Assembly (NCBI GenBank): GCA_017455565.1 | Contig: JAFSZV010000034.1 | Location: 1-64,000 of the forward strand | Source of the DNA: Clostridia bacterium | GTDB taxonomy: Bacteria; Bacillota; Clostridia; Oscillospirales; Butyricicoccaceae | Length of the DNA stretch: 64,000 bases | Reading direction: 5' to 3' | Shown here: positions 26,875 to 62,328 of the stretch, one piece after another | Layout: every line of letters starts with the position of its first letter | Position numbering within the stretch: position 1 is the stretch's first letter | Position numbers and translations under genes: made by a program | Notes under the pieces: generated by a model | Databases searched by the model: none | What the model was told of the DNA's origin: nothing | What the model saw: the letters and a program-made list of their open reading frames with translations, nothing else

Positions 26875-27399
26875 TCAATTGTCCGTCAGCTTTGCCTTCT
26901 GCAGCGCCGCCACGATGAGCGGCACCAGAATGAGCTGCAGAACGATGCCCGGGATGGCGTTGGTCACCGCGCCCGCCCAAAAGGCCGCCATGGGGAAGTT
27001 TTTCCCGTTGATCCCCATAACGACCGCCTGGGCGATGCCCCAGACGATGCGCCCGCCGATCATGGCGCCGATCAGGCTGAGATAGATGGCCGGCAGCTTT
27101 TTCCCCAGCTTCTTATACAGGATGGCCACGATCAGTCCATAGGCCGCCAGCTCAAAGGCCATGGAGATCGCCCCGGGCATGGGCGGCATATGGAACAGCA
27201 GATGCCGCAAAAGCGGCGCCGCAAAGCCCACGGCGGCGCCCCACTTCCAGCCGCAGAGATAGCCGCACAGCAGCACGGGCAGATGCATGGGCAGCAGCAT
27301 ACTGCCGATCTGGGGGATCTGCCCCGTCAAAAAGGGCAGCACCATGCACAGCGCCAGACACATCGCAGCATAGACCATTTTTTTCACAGAATCGTTCAT
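26875..27399 (-). CDS. ECF transporter S-component (vitamin or precursor uptake), substrate unknown
   Basis: 174 residues, five to six spans. The segment GSMLLPMHLPVLLCGYLCGW, then PLLRHLLFHMPPMPGA and FELAAYGL, is the pattern of a common clostridial S-component group. S-components bind a vitamin or similar solute and use the shared EcfAAT module, which is not encoded here, so this is a group II system. The start at 27399 (MNDSVKK) follows GGAAAGGAAG. Expression is controlled by a long attenuator leader (27400-27532), which may respond to the solute. No known ligand can be assigned from sequence. Confidence 0.85.
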   Translation of the reverse strand: MNDSVKKMVYAAMCLALCMVLPFLTGQIPQIGSMLLPMHLPVLLCGYLCGWKWGAAVGFAAPLLRHLLFHMPPMPGAISMAFELAAYGLIVAILYKKLGKKLPAIYLSLIGAMIGGRIVWGIAQAVVMGINGKNFPMAAFWAGAVTNAIPGIVLQLILVPLIVAALQKAKLTDN

Positions 27400-27532
27400 A
27401 TTTCTTCCTTTCCGCACGAAAAAAGGCATCCTTCTTCCTTGTGGAAAAAGGATACCTCGTGCATATCCGTAATTGCTTCCGCGCATTCAAAAAGCCGGGC
27501 TTCTGCCCCATGCCGGCGCTTGTGCCTCCGAC
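27400..27532 (-). promoter_or_regulatory. Attenuator leader (candidate riboswitch) of the ECF S-component gene
   Basis: About 133 nt lie between the predicted transcript start and the ATG. The 3' part forms a terminator (27419-27456). The upstream strand of its stem can instead pair with GGATAT (27463-27468 with 27450-27455), giving an antiterminator with loop GCACGAG. The 5' 65 nt hold GC-rich pairing segments such as GCCGG/CCGGC and GGGC/GCCC. I could not match it to TPP, FMN, cobalamin, THF, preQ1 or T-box consensus sequences. Confidence 0.55.
27419..27456 (-). terminator. Leader terminator (expression platform) of the ECF S-component gene
   Basis: 14-bp stem (27443-27456 with 27425-27438, two G-U pairs) and ACAA loop, followed by TTTTTT on the minus strand. 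It is complete before the ribosome site, so it would abort the transcript. Confidence 0.85.
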
Positions 27533-27538
27533 AGCTTG

Positions 27539-27567
27539 ATTATAGCCGTTTTTCTCGCTTCTGTCAA
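27539..27567 (-). promoter_or_regulatory. Consensus promoter of the ECF S-component gene
   Basis: TTGACA (27562-27567), 17 bp, TATAAT (27539-27544): a perfect sigma-A match on the minus strand. It overlaps the stop codon of the TM1266-type gene. Confidence 0.9.
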
Positions 27568-27836
27568 TCGTTCTTCCCGGCGTCCTGCGACACCACGTTG
27601 GAATAGGCCGTTTTGGAGCTTACGCCCGGCAGCCTGCCGATCTTGCCCGACAGGGCGCTGATCACGTCCTGCGGCGCGTCCACGGCCACGCTGATCACGC
27701 TGACGCCCCGCTTCGCATAGGGGATCCCCATCCTCCCGATGATCCATTCCCCGTATTCATGCAGCAGCCCGTTCAGCGCCGCCACCGATTCCTTGTCCTC
27801 TACCACGATCCCGATCACCGCGACTCTGCTTTCCAT
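27564..27836 (-). CDS. TM1266-family iron-only hydrogenase system putative regulator
   Basis: 90 residues, an ACT-like/NikR-C-like ferredoxin fold. The sequence RVAVIGIVVEDKESV, then GEWIIGRMGIPY and DVISALSGKIGRLPGVSSKTAYS, matches the small TM1266-type proteins usually found beside HydE/F/G maturases. They are predicted to sense a metabolite and regulate [FeFe]-hydrogenase genes. The ATG at 27836 follows GGAGGAGGATCG. No hydrogenase gene is in this window; instead it is 79 bp after the lipid-type reductase. Confidence 0.88.
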   Translation of the reverse strand: MESRVAVIGIVVEDKESVAALNGLLHEYGEWIIGRMGIPYAKRGVSVISVAVDAPQDVISALSGKIGRLPGVSSKTAYSNVVSQDAGKND

Positions 27837-27915: not shown

Positions 27916-28710
27916 TTACCCCGCATACAGCATCCCGATCAGCCGGTTGAGCAGCCTGCAGGGAAGCACCTTCGCCAAAAAGCAGAAAAACTGATAATCC
28001 GGCCGGATGGCGGTCAGCGGCTTTGGATGGGCCTTCAGCGCCATTTTGCAGACGCAGTTTCCCGCCTTTTGCGGGTCCATTCCCCCCTGCTCGTCCTTTT
28101 CCATCCGCGCCACCGAGCGGGATATCCGCCCCTGATACACGTCGTCGCCCGCCGCGCTCTTTACCCGGGCGGCGGTAAAGCCCGTGCGGATATCCCCGGG
28201 CCGCACGGCGCACACCGTGATGCCGAAGGGCCGCACCTCGTTGGCCAGCGCCATGGTATAGCTGTCGATGGCCGCCTTCGCCGCCGAGTAATAGGTCTGG
28301 AAGGGGATGGGGATGGGGGCCGCCACCGAGCTGATGTTGACGATCCGCCCGCCCCCCTGCTTCCGCAGGATGGGCAAAAAGACCCGGTTGACCCGCACCA
28401 TGCCGAAAAAGTTCACGTCAAACTGCCGCCTGGCCTCCTCGGTGTCGGTGAACTCCACCGCGCCCGAAATGCCAAAGCCCGCGTTGTTGATCACGATATC
28501 CACCCGGCCGGCCTCCCGCAGGATCTGCTCCGCCGCGGCGGCGATCTGCGCTTCGTCGGTCACGTCGGCCCGGATGTTCCGGATGCCCGGCGCGTCCTCG
28601 CCGCCCCTGCGGCTCAGGGTATACACCCGGCAGCCCTTTTGCGCCAACGCCCTTGCGGTGCACAGCCCGATGCCCGAGGTCCCTCCGGTGACGACGGCGA
28701 TCTTCTCCAT
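27916..28710 (-). CDS. Short-chain dehydrogenase/reductase, possibly 3-ketosphinganine-type reductase
   Basis: 264 residues. Rossmann motif TGGTSGIG (8-15), NNAGFG, Ser in NISSVAA and the YYSAAK active site are intact. The C-terminal third is longer and more hydrophobic (FFCFLAKVLPCRLLNRLIGMLY) than in typical SDRs, suggesting membrane association, as in lipid-substrate SDRs. It starts one base before the serine-palmitoyltransferase-like stop region, with AGGAAA in front, so it is the second gene of that operon. Reduction of the 3-keto product of its neighbour is the natural inference; a general acyl or hydroxy-steroid reductase is the alternative. Confidence 0.8.
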   Translation of the reverse strand: MEKIAVVTGGTSGIGLCTARALAQKGCRVYTLSRRGGEDAPGIRNIRADVTDEAQIAAAAEQILREAGRVDIVINNAGFGISGAVEFTDTEEARRQFDVNFFGMVRVNRVFLPILRKQGGGRIVNISSVAAPIPIPFQTYYSAAKAAIDSYTMALANEVRPFGITVCAVRPGDIRTGFTAARVKSAAGDDVYQGRISRSVARMEKDEQGGMDPQKAGNCVCKMALKAHPKPLTAIRPDYQFFCFLAKVLPCRLLNRLIGMLYAG

Positions 28711-28711
28711 G

Positions 28712-29884
28712 TTATTTTCCTCCCACCACAGACGCGATGATGTCGCTGGCCTCGTCCACCAGCGCCTCGGTCAGCGTTGCCATATAGCTGGTGCGCAGCA
28801 GGCAGTCCGAGGGCGGCGTTGCCGGCGGCAAAACGGGATTGACGTAGACGCCGCCCTCATAGATCTTCCGCGCCGTTTCCAGCGTGTTCATGATATCGTG
28901 GGTATAGATGGGGATGATGGGCGTTTCGGCCTCCCGGATGGAAACGCCCTTCTCCTTAAAGCACTTTCTGGCGTATCCGGCGATGTGCGCCAGCTTCTCG
29001 GGCAGCTCGGGATGCTCCTTAAGCTCCCGCAGCGCGGCCAGCGCCGTGGCGCAGCTTGCCGGCGGGATCGACGCGGAAAAGATAAAGGGCCGGCTGTTGT
29101 GGCGCACATAGTCCACCACCCGGGCCGAGGCCGCCATATAGCCGCCCAGCGAAGCCAGCGACTTGCTGAAGGTGCCCATATAGATGTCCACCTGATCCTC
29201 CATGCCGAAATAGCTGGCGGTGCCTCTGCCGCCTTCCCCGATCACGCCCAGGCCGTGGGCGTCGTCCACCATGACCCGTGCGCCGTACTTCTTCGCCAGC
29301 GCCACGATCTCCGGCAACTTGGCAATGTCGCCGCCCATGGAAAACACGCCGTCGGTGACGATCAGGCTACCCGCGTTCTCAGGCACCTTCTGAAGCTGCC
29401 GCTCCAGATCCTCCATGTCGGCGTGCTTGAAGCGCAGCATCTTTCCGTAGCTCAGCTTGATGCCGTCATAGATGCTGGCATGATTCTCCTTGTCCGAAAT
29501 GACATAGTCGCCCATGCCCACCACGGCGCTGATGATGCCCAGATTCGACTGGAATCCGGTGGAAAAAGTCATCACGGCGTCCTTATGCAAAAACTCCGCC
29601 AACTCCTGTTCCAGCTCCAAGTGCATCTCCAGCGTCCCGTTGAGGAATCGGGAGCCCGAGCAGCCGGTTCCGTATTTTTCCAGCGCCTTGATGCCCGCCT
29701 CGATGACTCGCTGGTTGGTGGTCAGGCCCAGATAATTGTTGGAGCCCAGCATGATCCGCCGCTTGCCCTCCATCTGCACCACGGCGTCCTGCCGGGATTC
29801 CAGCGCGTGAAAATAGGGATAAACATCCTTTTCCCGCAGTTCGTCGACCATGCTCGGCCGCATCATTTTCTCAAAAATATCCAA
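28712..29884 (-). CDS. Alpha-oxoamine synthase, serine palmitoyltransferase-like
   Basis: 390 residues, PLP-dependent fold type I. PLP lysine K241 lies in GTFSKSLASLGG, the cofactor-stacking His135 in NHASI, and Asp207/His210 in VDDAHGLG. The blocks YPYF, GCSGSRFLNGTLEMH, FKHADMEDLE and RHNSRPFIFSASIPPAS are those of bacterial serine palmitoyltransferases rather than of Kbl or BioF. Such enzymes join serine (or another amino acid) to a long acyl thioester, giving 3-ketosphinganine-type lipids. It starts at a TTG (29884) with AGAGG upstream and has its own strong promoter. Partners for acyl supply are not in the window. Confidence 0.8.
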   Translation of the reverse strand: MDIFEKMMRPSMVDELREKDVYPYFHALESRQDAVVQMEGKRRIMLGSNNYLGLTTNQRVIEAGIKALEKYGTGCSGSRFLNGTLEMHLELEQELAEFLHKDAVMTFSTGFQSNLGIISAVVGMGDYVISDKENHASIYDGIKLSYGKMLRFKHADMEDLERQLQKVPENAGSLIVTDGVFSMGGDIAKLPEIVALAKKYGARVMVDDAHGLGVIGEGGRGTASYFGMEDQVDIYMGTFSKSLASLGGYMAASARVVDYVRHNSRPFIFSASIPPASCATALAALRELKEHPELPEKLAHIAGYARKCFKEKGVSIREAETPIIPIYTHDIMNTLETARKIYEGGVYVNPVLPPATPPSDCLLRTSYMATLTEALVDEASDIIASVVGGK

Positions 29885-61767: not shown

Positions 61768-62328
61768 TTACAGCCGCAGTGCACAGCTTTCCGCCACGGC
61801 ACAGGCGGCAAAATACCGCTCCTCCAGCGGGATCCACTTTTCCAGAAAGGCCGCGGCGCCCGCTTCACCCTCCCGGGCCAGCAGCCGCCGTTTCTGCTCC
61901 TCCGGCTCCACGGTGAGGAAGATCCCCAGATCGTAAGCTGACCGTAGCGCGGGATGCATGCTATACGATCCCTCGATGATGGCAACCGGCTTCGGCTCCA
62001 CCCGTTTTTTCCCCGTGATGTCCATCACGCCGCAGTCAAAGACCCCGTAAGAAAAGGCCGTGCCCGCCGCAAGCGGTGCCAGAACCTCTTGCATGAACCG
62101 TTCGTGATGCACATTCCCGCCGGGCTGCGCCAGACGCTTTTCCGTCCGTAGCGTCGGCGGCAGAAAAAAATCGTCCATGGCGATCACGTTTGCCTCCAGC
62201 CGCCGGGCAAGTTCCAGTGCGAACGTGGTTTTTCCCGCGGCGCATCGCCCGTCTACGGCGACGATCACCCGCTCCTTGTTTTTCAGGATCCGGCGGATGG
62301 CCTTTTCCGCCCGCTCGATTTTGTTCAT
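61768..62328 (-). CDS. P-loop nucleoside kinase-like protein (uridine kinase family)
   Basis: 186 residues. Walker A GRCAAGKTT (27-35), then MDDFFLPP and a lid rich in Arg. This is the layout of the PRK/uridine-kinase group, shorter than Udk. It would phosphorylate a small nucleoside or pantothenate-like substrate in the cytosol. It has its own promoter and is followed by the TPR gene promoter. Exact substrate unknown. Confidence 0.8.
   Translation of the reverse strand: MNKIERAEKAIRRILKNKERVIVAVDGRCAAGKTTFALELARRLEANVIAMDDFFLPPTLRTEKRLAQPGGNVHHERFMQEVLAPLAAGTAFSYGVFDCGVMDITGKKRVEPKPVAIIEGSYSMHPALRSAYDLGIFLTVEPEEQKRRLLAREGEAGAAAFLEKWIPLEERYFAACAVAESCALRL

Follow-up and report, generated by a model that had tools for sequence, protein, structure and literature searches.

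Among the described RNA elements, the NiCo (czcD) riboswitch serves nickel/cobalt homeostasis; it is a junction aptamer, larger than the element reported here, and is located before efflux genes. Nickel importers are controlled by NikR, a DNA-binding repressor that acts on transcription initiation of nik operons. NikR is found in less than half of the organisms that have NikABCDE (PMC2667541), thus an unknown regulator is to be expected. Other known systems are close to the present locus in architecture. The sites of ANTAR antiterminators (EutV, NasR, AmiR) are dual hairpins whose hexanucleotide loops have A at position 1 and G at position 4 (PMC3369931); the second hairpin overlaps the terminator, and antitermination is the expected outcome. 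In the guanidine-II riboswitch (mini-ykkC), two small hairpins resemble each other and carry C-G-closed tetraloops (ACGR), which form kissing loops. In the HMP-PP riboswitch (thiS motif) the sensor structure is placed within the terminator (PMC6478431).

Here we analyze a leader that is similar to each of these systems in some respects and differs from them in others. It precedes a gene of an ECF transporter S component in a stretch of DNA of 64,000 nucleotides, which we call the window. The features of the locus are as follows:

27567-27562, minus strand: -35 box TTGACA, perfect consensus (sequence)
27544-27539, minus strand: -10 box TATAAT, perfect consensus, 17-nt spacer to the -35 box (sequence)
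27532-27400, minus strand: 133-nt leader preceding the ATG at 27399
27512..27532, minus strand: hairpin 1, GUCGGAGGC-ACAA-GCGCCGGC, imperfect stem, loop C-ACAA-G (folding)
27497..27508, minus strand: hairpin 2, GGGC-AGAA-GCCC (folding and homologue comparison)
27450..27468, minus strand: hairpin 3, the antiterminator, GGAUAUGC-ACGA-GGUAUCC, forming in the nascent RNA (folding)
27432..27449, minus strand: hairpin 4, the terminator tip, UUUUUCC-ACAA-GGAAGAA (folding)
27423..27458, minus strand: intrinsic terminator stem of 16 bp with ACAA loop, mutually exclusive with hairpin 3
27424-27419, minus strand: T6 tract after the terminator (sequence)
27404..27410, minus strand: ribosome binding site AAGGAAG (sequence)
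26875..27399, minus strand: ECF transporter S component gene (PF12822, E = 2.7e-19 for ORF 26878-27399)

The first-pass annotation, made from the sequence alone, had reported a perfect TTGACA-17-TATAAT promoter and a 133-nt leader, and both are indeed found in the sequence. The terminator with T6 is present as well, but its stem measures 16 bp instead of the reported 14 bp. The minimum free energy of the leader is -56.7 kcal/mol (z = -5.8 relative to dinucleotide shuffles). GGATA at 27468-27464 is complementary to UAUCC in the 5' arm of the terminator, in accordance with the pairing proposed earlier. If the nascent RNA is cut before the 3' arm of the terminator, it folds into separate hairpins including the antiterminator, which has a single G.G mismatch adjoining its C-ACGA-G loop. 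The suggested on/off attenuator is thus supported by folding: the terminator and the antiterminator exclude each other. Forcing the antiterminator in the full leader gives -44.4 kcal/mol vs -56.7 kcal/mol, i.e., a penalty of about 12 kcal/mol, and the finished terminator is favoured.

The whole array comprises four short hairpins with C-G-closed loops (ACAA, AGAA, or ACGA) arranged in two pairs, and the second pair consists of the antiterminator and the terminator tip. The distance between the loop-closing G residues is 19 nt from hairpin 1 to hairpin 2 and 18 nt from hairpin 3 to hairpin 4. The upstream 65 nt had been described as GC-rich pairing segments with no recognizable match to known leaders. 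The pairing and the lack of a known match stand, and the segments are now resolved as hairpins 1 and 2 of a repeated motif.

The earlier reading of the leader as unassigned agrees with the Rfam check. No family reached its gathering score in the window. In the leader, only two meaningless matches were obtained at E up to 10 (sok, E = 0.79; FTX_2, E = 6.4), and in 20 homologous loci nothing except a tRNA was above gathering at E up to 2. In particular, the guanidine-II and NiCo models matched neither the window, nor the leader, nor the 20 homologous loci. A match to the AdoCbl-II riboswitch below the threshold (32.1 bits vs gathering 36.5) is present in a neighbouring region (L018 2627-2701, minus strand).

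Several observations concern the surroundings of the leader. The promoter immediately follows a gene of a TM1266-family iron-only hydrogenase regulator (27567-27836, minus strand), which reaches as far as the -35 box. Further upstream (27919-29884, minus strand), a short-chain dehydrogenase, with 3-ketodihydrosphingosine reductase as the best NCBIfam match, adjoins a BioF/Kbl-family acyltransferase, with serine palmitoyltransferase as the best match. Both matches are below the curated cut-offs; the two genes are possibly a sphingolipid gene pair in a Clostridium.

We studied 130 leaders of the S-component family; they come from about 128 genomes that belong to the same order and represent 19 families. 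Motif hairpins were counted by a fixed rule. The inner four base pairs were the selection criterion, so we put the weight on the outer pairs, the spacing, and the controls with shuffles and with DUF3842 (see below). The stems of homologous hairpins differ wholly in sequence with pairing kept, and the loops are conserved. The C-G-closed loops are AGAA, ACAA, ATGAA, TGAA, ACGAA (these five are dominant across homologues), and AGGAA; they belong to the types ANAA, NGAA, and ANGAA and have the consensus C-A-N-(G)-A-A-G with a length of 4-5 nt. These loop types are enriched 40-300 fold in the leaders compared to the surrounding DNA. Hairpin 1 starts 4-14 nt past the -10 box in 29 of 32 homologous leaders. 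Of 89 distances between neighbouring hairpins, 38 are 17-20 nt and only three are 10-16 or 21-30 nt. In the alignment of 32 hairpin pairs, 93% of cells are paired and there are 172 double changes vs 55 in the shuffled control. Thus, a covariation check in homologous leaders, which the first-pass annotation had recommended, reveals a conserved structure with strong covariation.

The attenuator itself is also seen in homologues, where the antiterminator segment is GGTATC-ACAA-GATAC or GATACT-ATGAA-GGTGTC. Under the strict rule, a motif hairpin overlaps the 5' arm of the terminator in 24 of 48 terminator-bearing leaders (in more of them if a mismatch is tolerated), and a motif hairpin is located at the terminator tip in 24 of 48. 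Most likely, the element belongs to a new class of RNAs for transcription attenuation.

In a site for an ANTAR response regulator the architecture would be the same: a pair of small hairpins whose loops are conserved, with an overlap between the second hairpin and the terminator (PMC3369931). However, ANTAR sites require hexanucleotide loops with A1 and G4 (PMC3369931), whereas the loops here are of 4-5 nt with the C-A-N-(G)-A-A-G pattern, there are two pairs and not one, the spacing of 18-20 nt is fixed, and the regulon is different. In addition, the own genome of the window (G000) lacks the ANTAR domain (PF03861), as do 24 of 30 relatives with arrays. An ANTAR site is refuted by the own genome, which has no ANTAR protein, and we assign it practically no probability. 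Unlike guanidine-II, the element has ANAA/NGAA/ANGAA loops, a second pair embedded in the terminator, a co-occurring protein, and nickel genes downstream. It shares the terminator-embedded sensor with the HMP-PP riboswitch but has no Rfam match, another regulon, and another proposed signal.

To describe the regulon we used a covariance model for a single pair of hairpins (R1), with which 60 and then 395 genomes were searched. The cut-off in the 395-genome set was E <= 0.05, and the resulting regulon size is a lower bound. In the window, no R1 match scores better than that at hairpins 1 and 2; the genome has just one other match (G000:C34:11377), which is inside a coding region and was rejected as a second array. 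At least 24 matches were found in the 395 genomes, of which 14 precede the S component, 7 precede other operons, and 3 are inside genes. The matches G264, G338, G165, G073, and G020:C8 are inside genes and were discarded. The array-bearing operons other than those of the S component are the following:

G021, G408: NikA/B-type importers with LarC or with FmdE-LarE-LarB-LarC
G322: methyltransferase-NikB-C-A-D-E
G220: LarE-LarB-LarC and importer genes
G138, G198: two small proteins and LarB/LarC/LarE
G272: LarB, FmdE, and a FecCD system
G074: FecCD-ATPase-binding protein (from the 60-genome set)
G019: CbiM/NikM-LarE-LarB-LarC (array at lar operon, direct inspection)
G056, G028: LarE-LarB-LarC-NikABCDE (array at lar operon, direct inspection)
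G035, G058: LarE-LarB-LarC (array at lar operon, direct inspection)
G023: LarE (array at lar operon, direct inspection)

The calls of LarB, LarC, and LarE exceed the NCBIfam equivalog cut-offs; CbiM, SBP_bac_5, FecCD, and FmdE are Pfam assignments. What the SBP_bac_5 and FecCD systems transport is presumed from the family and the neighbours alone. The shared theme of the array-bearing genes is nickel uptake and synthesis of the nickel-pincer nucleotide (NPN). In this the element differs from the NiCo riboswitch, since it precedes uptake and cofactor-synthesis genes, and it differs from NikR in using RNA attenuation.

Two small genes without a Pfam match (MACLIVPAAEA..., MTLLTTVFAAVICTVIWYK...; L164/L237 and L169/L238) precede LarB/LarE in several genomes and possibly encode new nickel-pathway proteins. 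FmdE-family proteins are recurrent in nickel, lar, and CbiM operons (L246, L242, L240, L270, L285), one of them with a dksA/traR-type zinc finger.

The composition of the regulon bears on the ligand. The first-pass annotation had proposed a riboswitch for a vitamin-like solute transported by the S component. The S component does resemble RibU/ThiT and is the commonest downstream gene, but the same element precedes LarB/C/E operons, nickel ABC importers, and CbiM/NikM, and the S-component leaders of genomes without DUF3842 do not have it. The vitamin-like ligand is therefore not supported, and we regard such a riboswitch as very unlikely.

The array often has the gene of DUF3842 (PF12953, as assigned by Pfam for the G079 member) immediately upstream of it. 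At least two motif hairpins were found in 49 of 74 S-component leaders from DUF3842-positive genomes and in 1 of 56 leaders from DUF3842-negative genomes (p = 7e-16); 25 of the 74 do not pass the strict two-hairpin rule. The single exception among the negative genomes (L136) looks like an ordinary chance terminator. The link holds within families (Mantel-Haenszel p = 8e-9; within-family permutation p = 5e-5). We rejected the explanation of the arrays as chance terminators using the background set by shuffles and DUF3842-negative leaders: the positive leaders contain 151 motif hairpins vs 5.4 in shuffles, and the negative ones contain 6 vs 3.3, i.e., are near the background. All 21 genuine R1 matches are in DUF3842-positive genomes (130 of the 395 are positive), and the three in-gene matches are in DUF3842-negative genomes. 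By the strict definition, an array is directly upstream of lar genes in 6 of 17 positive and 0 of 8 negative genomes (p = 0.13); anywhere at the lar operon, the numbers are 9 of 17 and 0 of 8 (p = 0.02, a small sample). In the six DUF3842-negative genomes that we inspected, no array was found upstream of the lar operons. The presence of the element thus depends on DUF3842 in the genome, which does not fit the self-contained riboswitch proposed earlier. Terminator and antiterminator in a 5' leader, with an occurrence tied to DUF3842, are what characterizes a protein-dependent attenuator, although co-occurrence is not a mechanism.

The own genome of the window encodes DUF3842 on the same contig:

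L229 6296-6709, i.e., contig C83 68295-68708, minus strand: DUF3842 gene, 4.3 kb past the window

There are no recognizable lar or nik genes around it. DUF3842 is found in 135 of 299 sampled genomes of the phylum (about 45%). In some other families of the phylum it adjoins CooT, CbiM/NikM, and FmdE. In another family of the phylum (L293, G526) arrays are found in front of both DUF3842 itself and CbiM/NikM, and CooT is between them; as for the DUF3842 genes of other families in the phylum, most of them lack an array within 1.5 kb. In L275, L277, L280, L282, and L287, also from other families, DUF3842 follows a gene that resembles, by eye, isochorismatase/nicotinamidase, which possibly links it to nicotinate, from which the pincer nucleotide derives.

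The predicted structure of DUF3842 is a Rossmann-like domain (pLDDT 96). Its best PDB matches are NAD(P) enzymes with a weak TM-score of about 0.5. D7, GG, GTN, and GEN are conserved, and one cysteine is invariant within the order of the window. Rather than reading the RNA, DUF3842 could make or bind the signal. In a true riboswitch of this kind, somewhat comparable to guanidine-II with its two hairpins, the tandem hairpins would bind Ni2+ or NPN directly, and DUF3842 would only make, carry, or consume the ligand. It is known that a ligand pocket can arise where the small conserved loops of two similar hairpins touch (PMC5486947), the controlled genes all belong to one small-molecule pathway, and the fold of DUF3842 is of a nucleotide-binding type. 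Against this, arrays track DUF3842 and are lacking in the LarB/C/E and S-component leaders of DUF3842-negative genomes; separate hairpins with variable stems and loops of 4-5 nt leave little room for an aptamer, and the self-complementary CG of guanidine-II is absent from most loops. We consider such a riboswitch rather unlikely.

The hairpins could also be read by another RNA-binding protein, CooT-like or uncharacterized and co-inherited, with DUF3842 being a co-regulated nickel-pathway protein. Of 30 loci from other families in the phylum, 15 have CooT (PF10133) next to DUF3842. DUF3842 itself is not basic (its net charge is near zero) and has no RNA-binding signature or precedent, and this is where its assignment as the regulator is weakest. 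Yet no CooT homologue was found in the examined loci of the window's order or in 43% of the own genome, and what is tightly linked to the arrays within families is DUF3842 itself, so another reader appears quite improbable.

The S component has a distant RibU/ThiT-like fold and not a CbiM-like one, with an invariant H39 and nearly invariant M38, C45, and C49. Its occurrence is complementary to that of LarC: among 99 relatives, 5 have both, 52 only the S component, and 20 only LarC (p = 1.5e-5). For the 51 DUF3842-positive genomes the numbers are 4, 34, and 13, and none has neither. The own genome has no LarC; approximate LarA sequence motifs had no match in the 43% of its bases that were searched. 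A uridine-kinase-type kinase follows the S component in several genomes. Because of this neighbour and the complementarity with LarC, we suggest that the S component may salvage NPN or its precursor, replacing de novo synthesis. The window also encodes a stand-alone P-loop uridine-kinase-like kinase (61768-62328, minus strand) with no array seen upstream; in its domain it shares about 41% identity with the kinase that in other genomes is fused to S components or encoded 3' of them.

Since nickel and LarB/C/E operons share the element and its presence follows DUF3842, we infer a nickel or nickel-cofactor signal and a protein partner. Probably, the paired loops are read by a factor acting in trans, and this factor, which is most likely DUF3842 (by itself or together with a partner), causes antitermination that tunes the supply of nickel or of the pincer cofactor. 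In the nascent RNA, hairpins 3 and 4 make up a second pair whose geometry matches that of hairpins 1 and 2. The factor bound to this second pair would stabilize hairpin 3, which would occupy the 5' arm of the terminator and allow read-through; without the factor, the longer terminator would win. Binding would thus mean ON, and the simplest logic for uptake and cofactor genes would be ON when nickel or NPN is scarce. More tentatively, it is possible that DUF3842 is the founder of an RNA-binding antitermination family with a Rossmann-type fold, which would sense NPN or nickel and read the arrays, and that the S component, often with the kinase 3' of it, serves NPN salvage. Our literature search revealed no paper mentioning DUF3842 and none on a nickel-pincer riboswitch or nickel antitermination.

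The leader is an RNA switch that stands before nickel-uptake and cofactor genes of many gut Clostridia, only in genomes that encode DUF3842. It looks like a control of nickel supply of a new kind and not like a vitamin riboswitch. This bears on the regulation of nickel uptake in Firmicutes, for which it provides a concrete RNA element, a set of target genes, and a candidate regulator. It also makes the function of an orphan S component testable, namely the putative uptake of the nickel-pincer cofactor or its precursor in bacteria without LarB/C/E.
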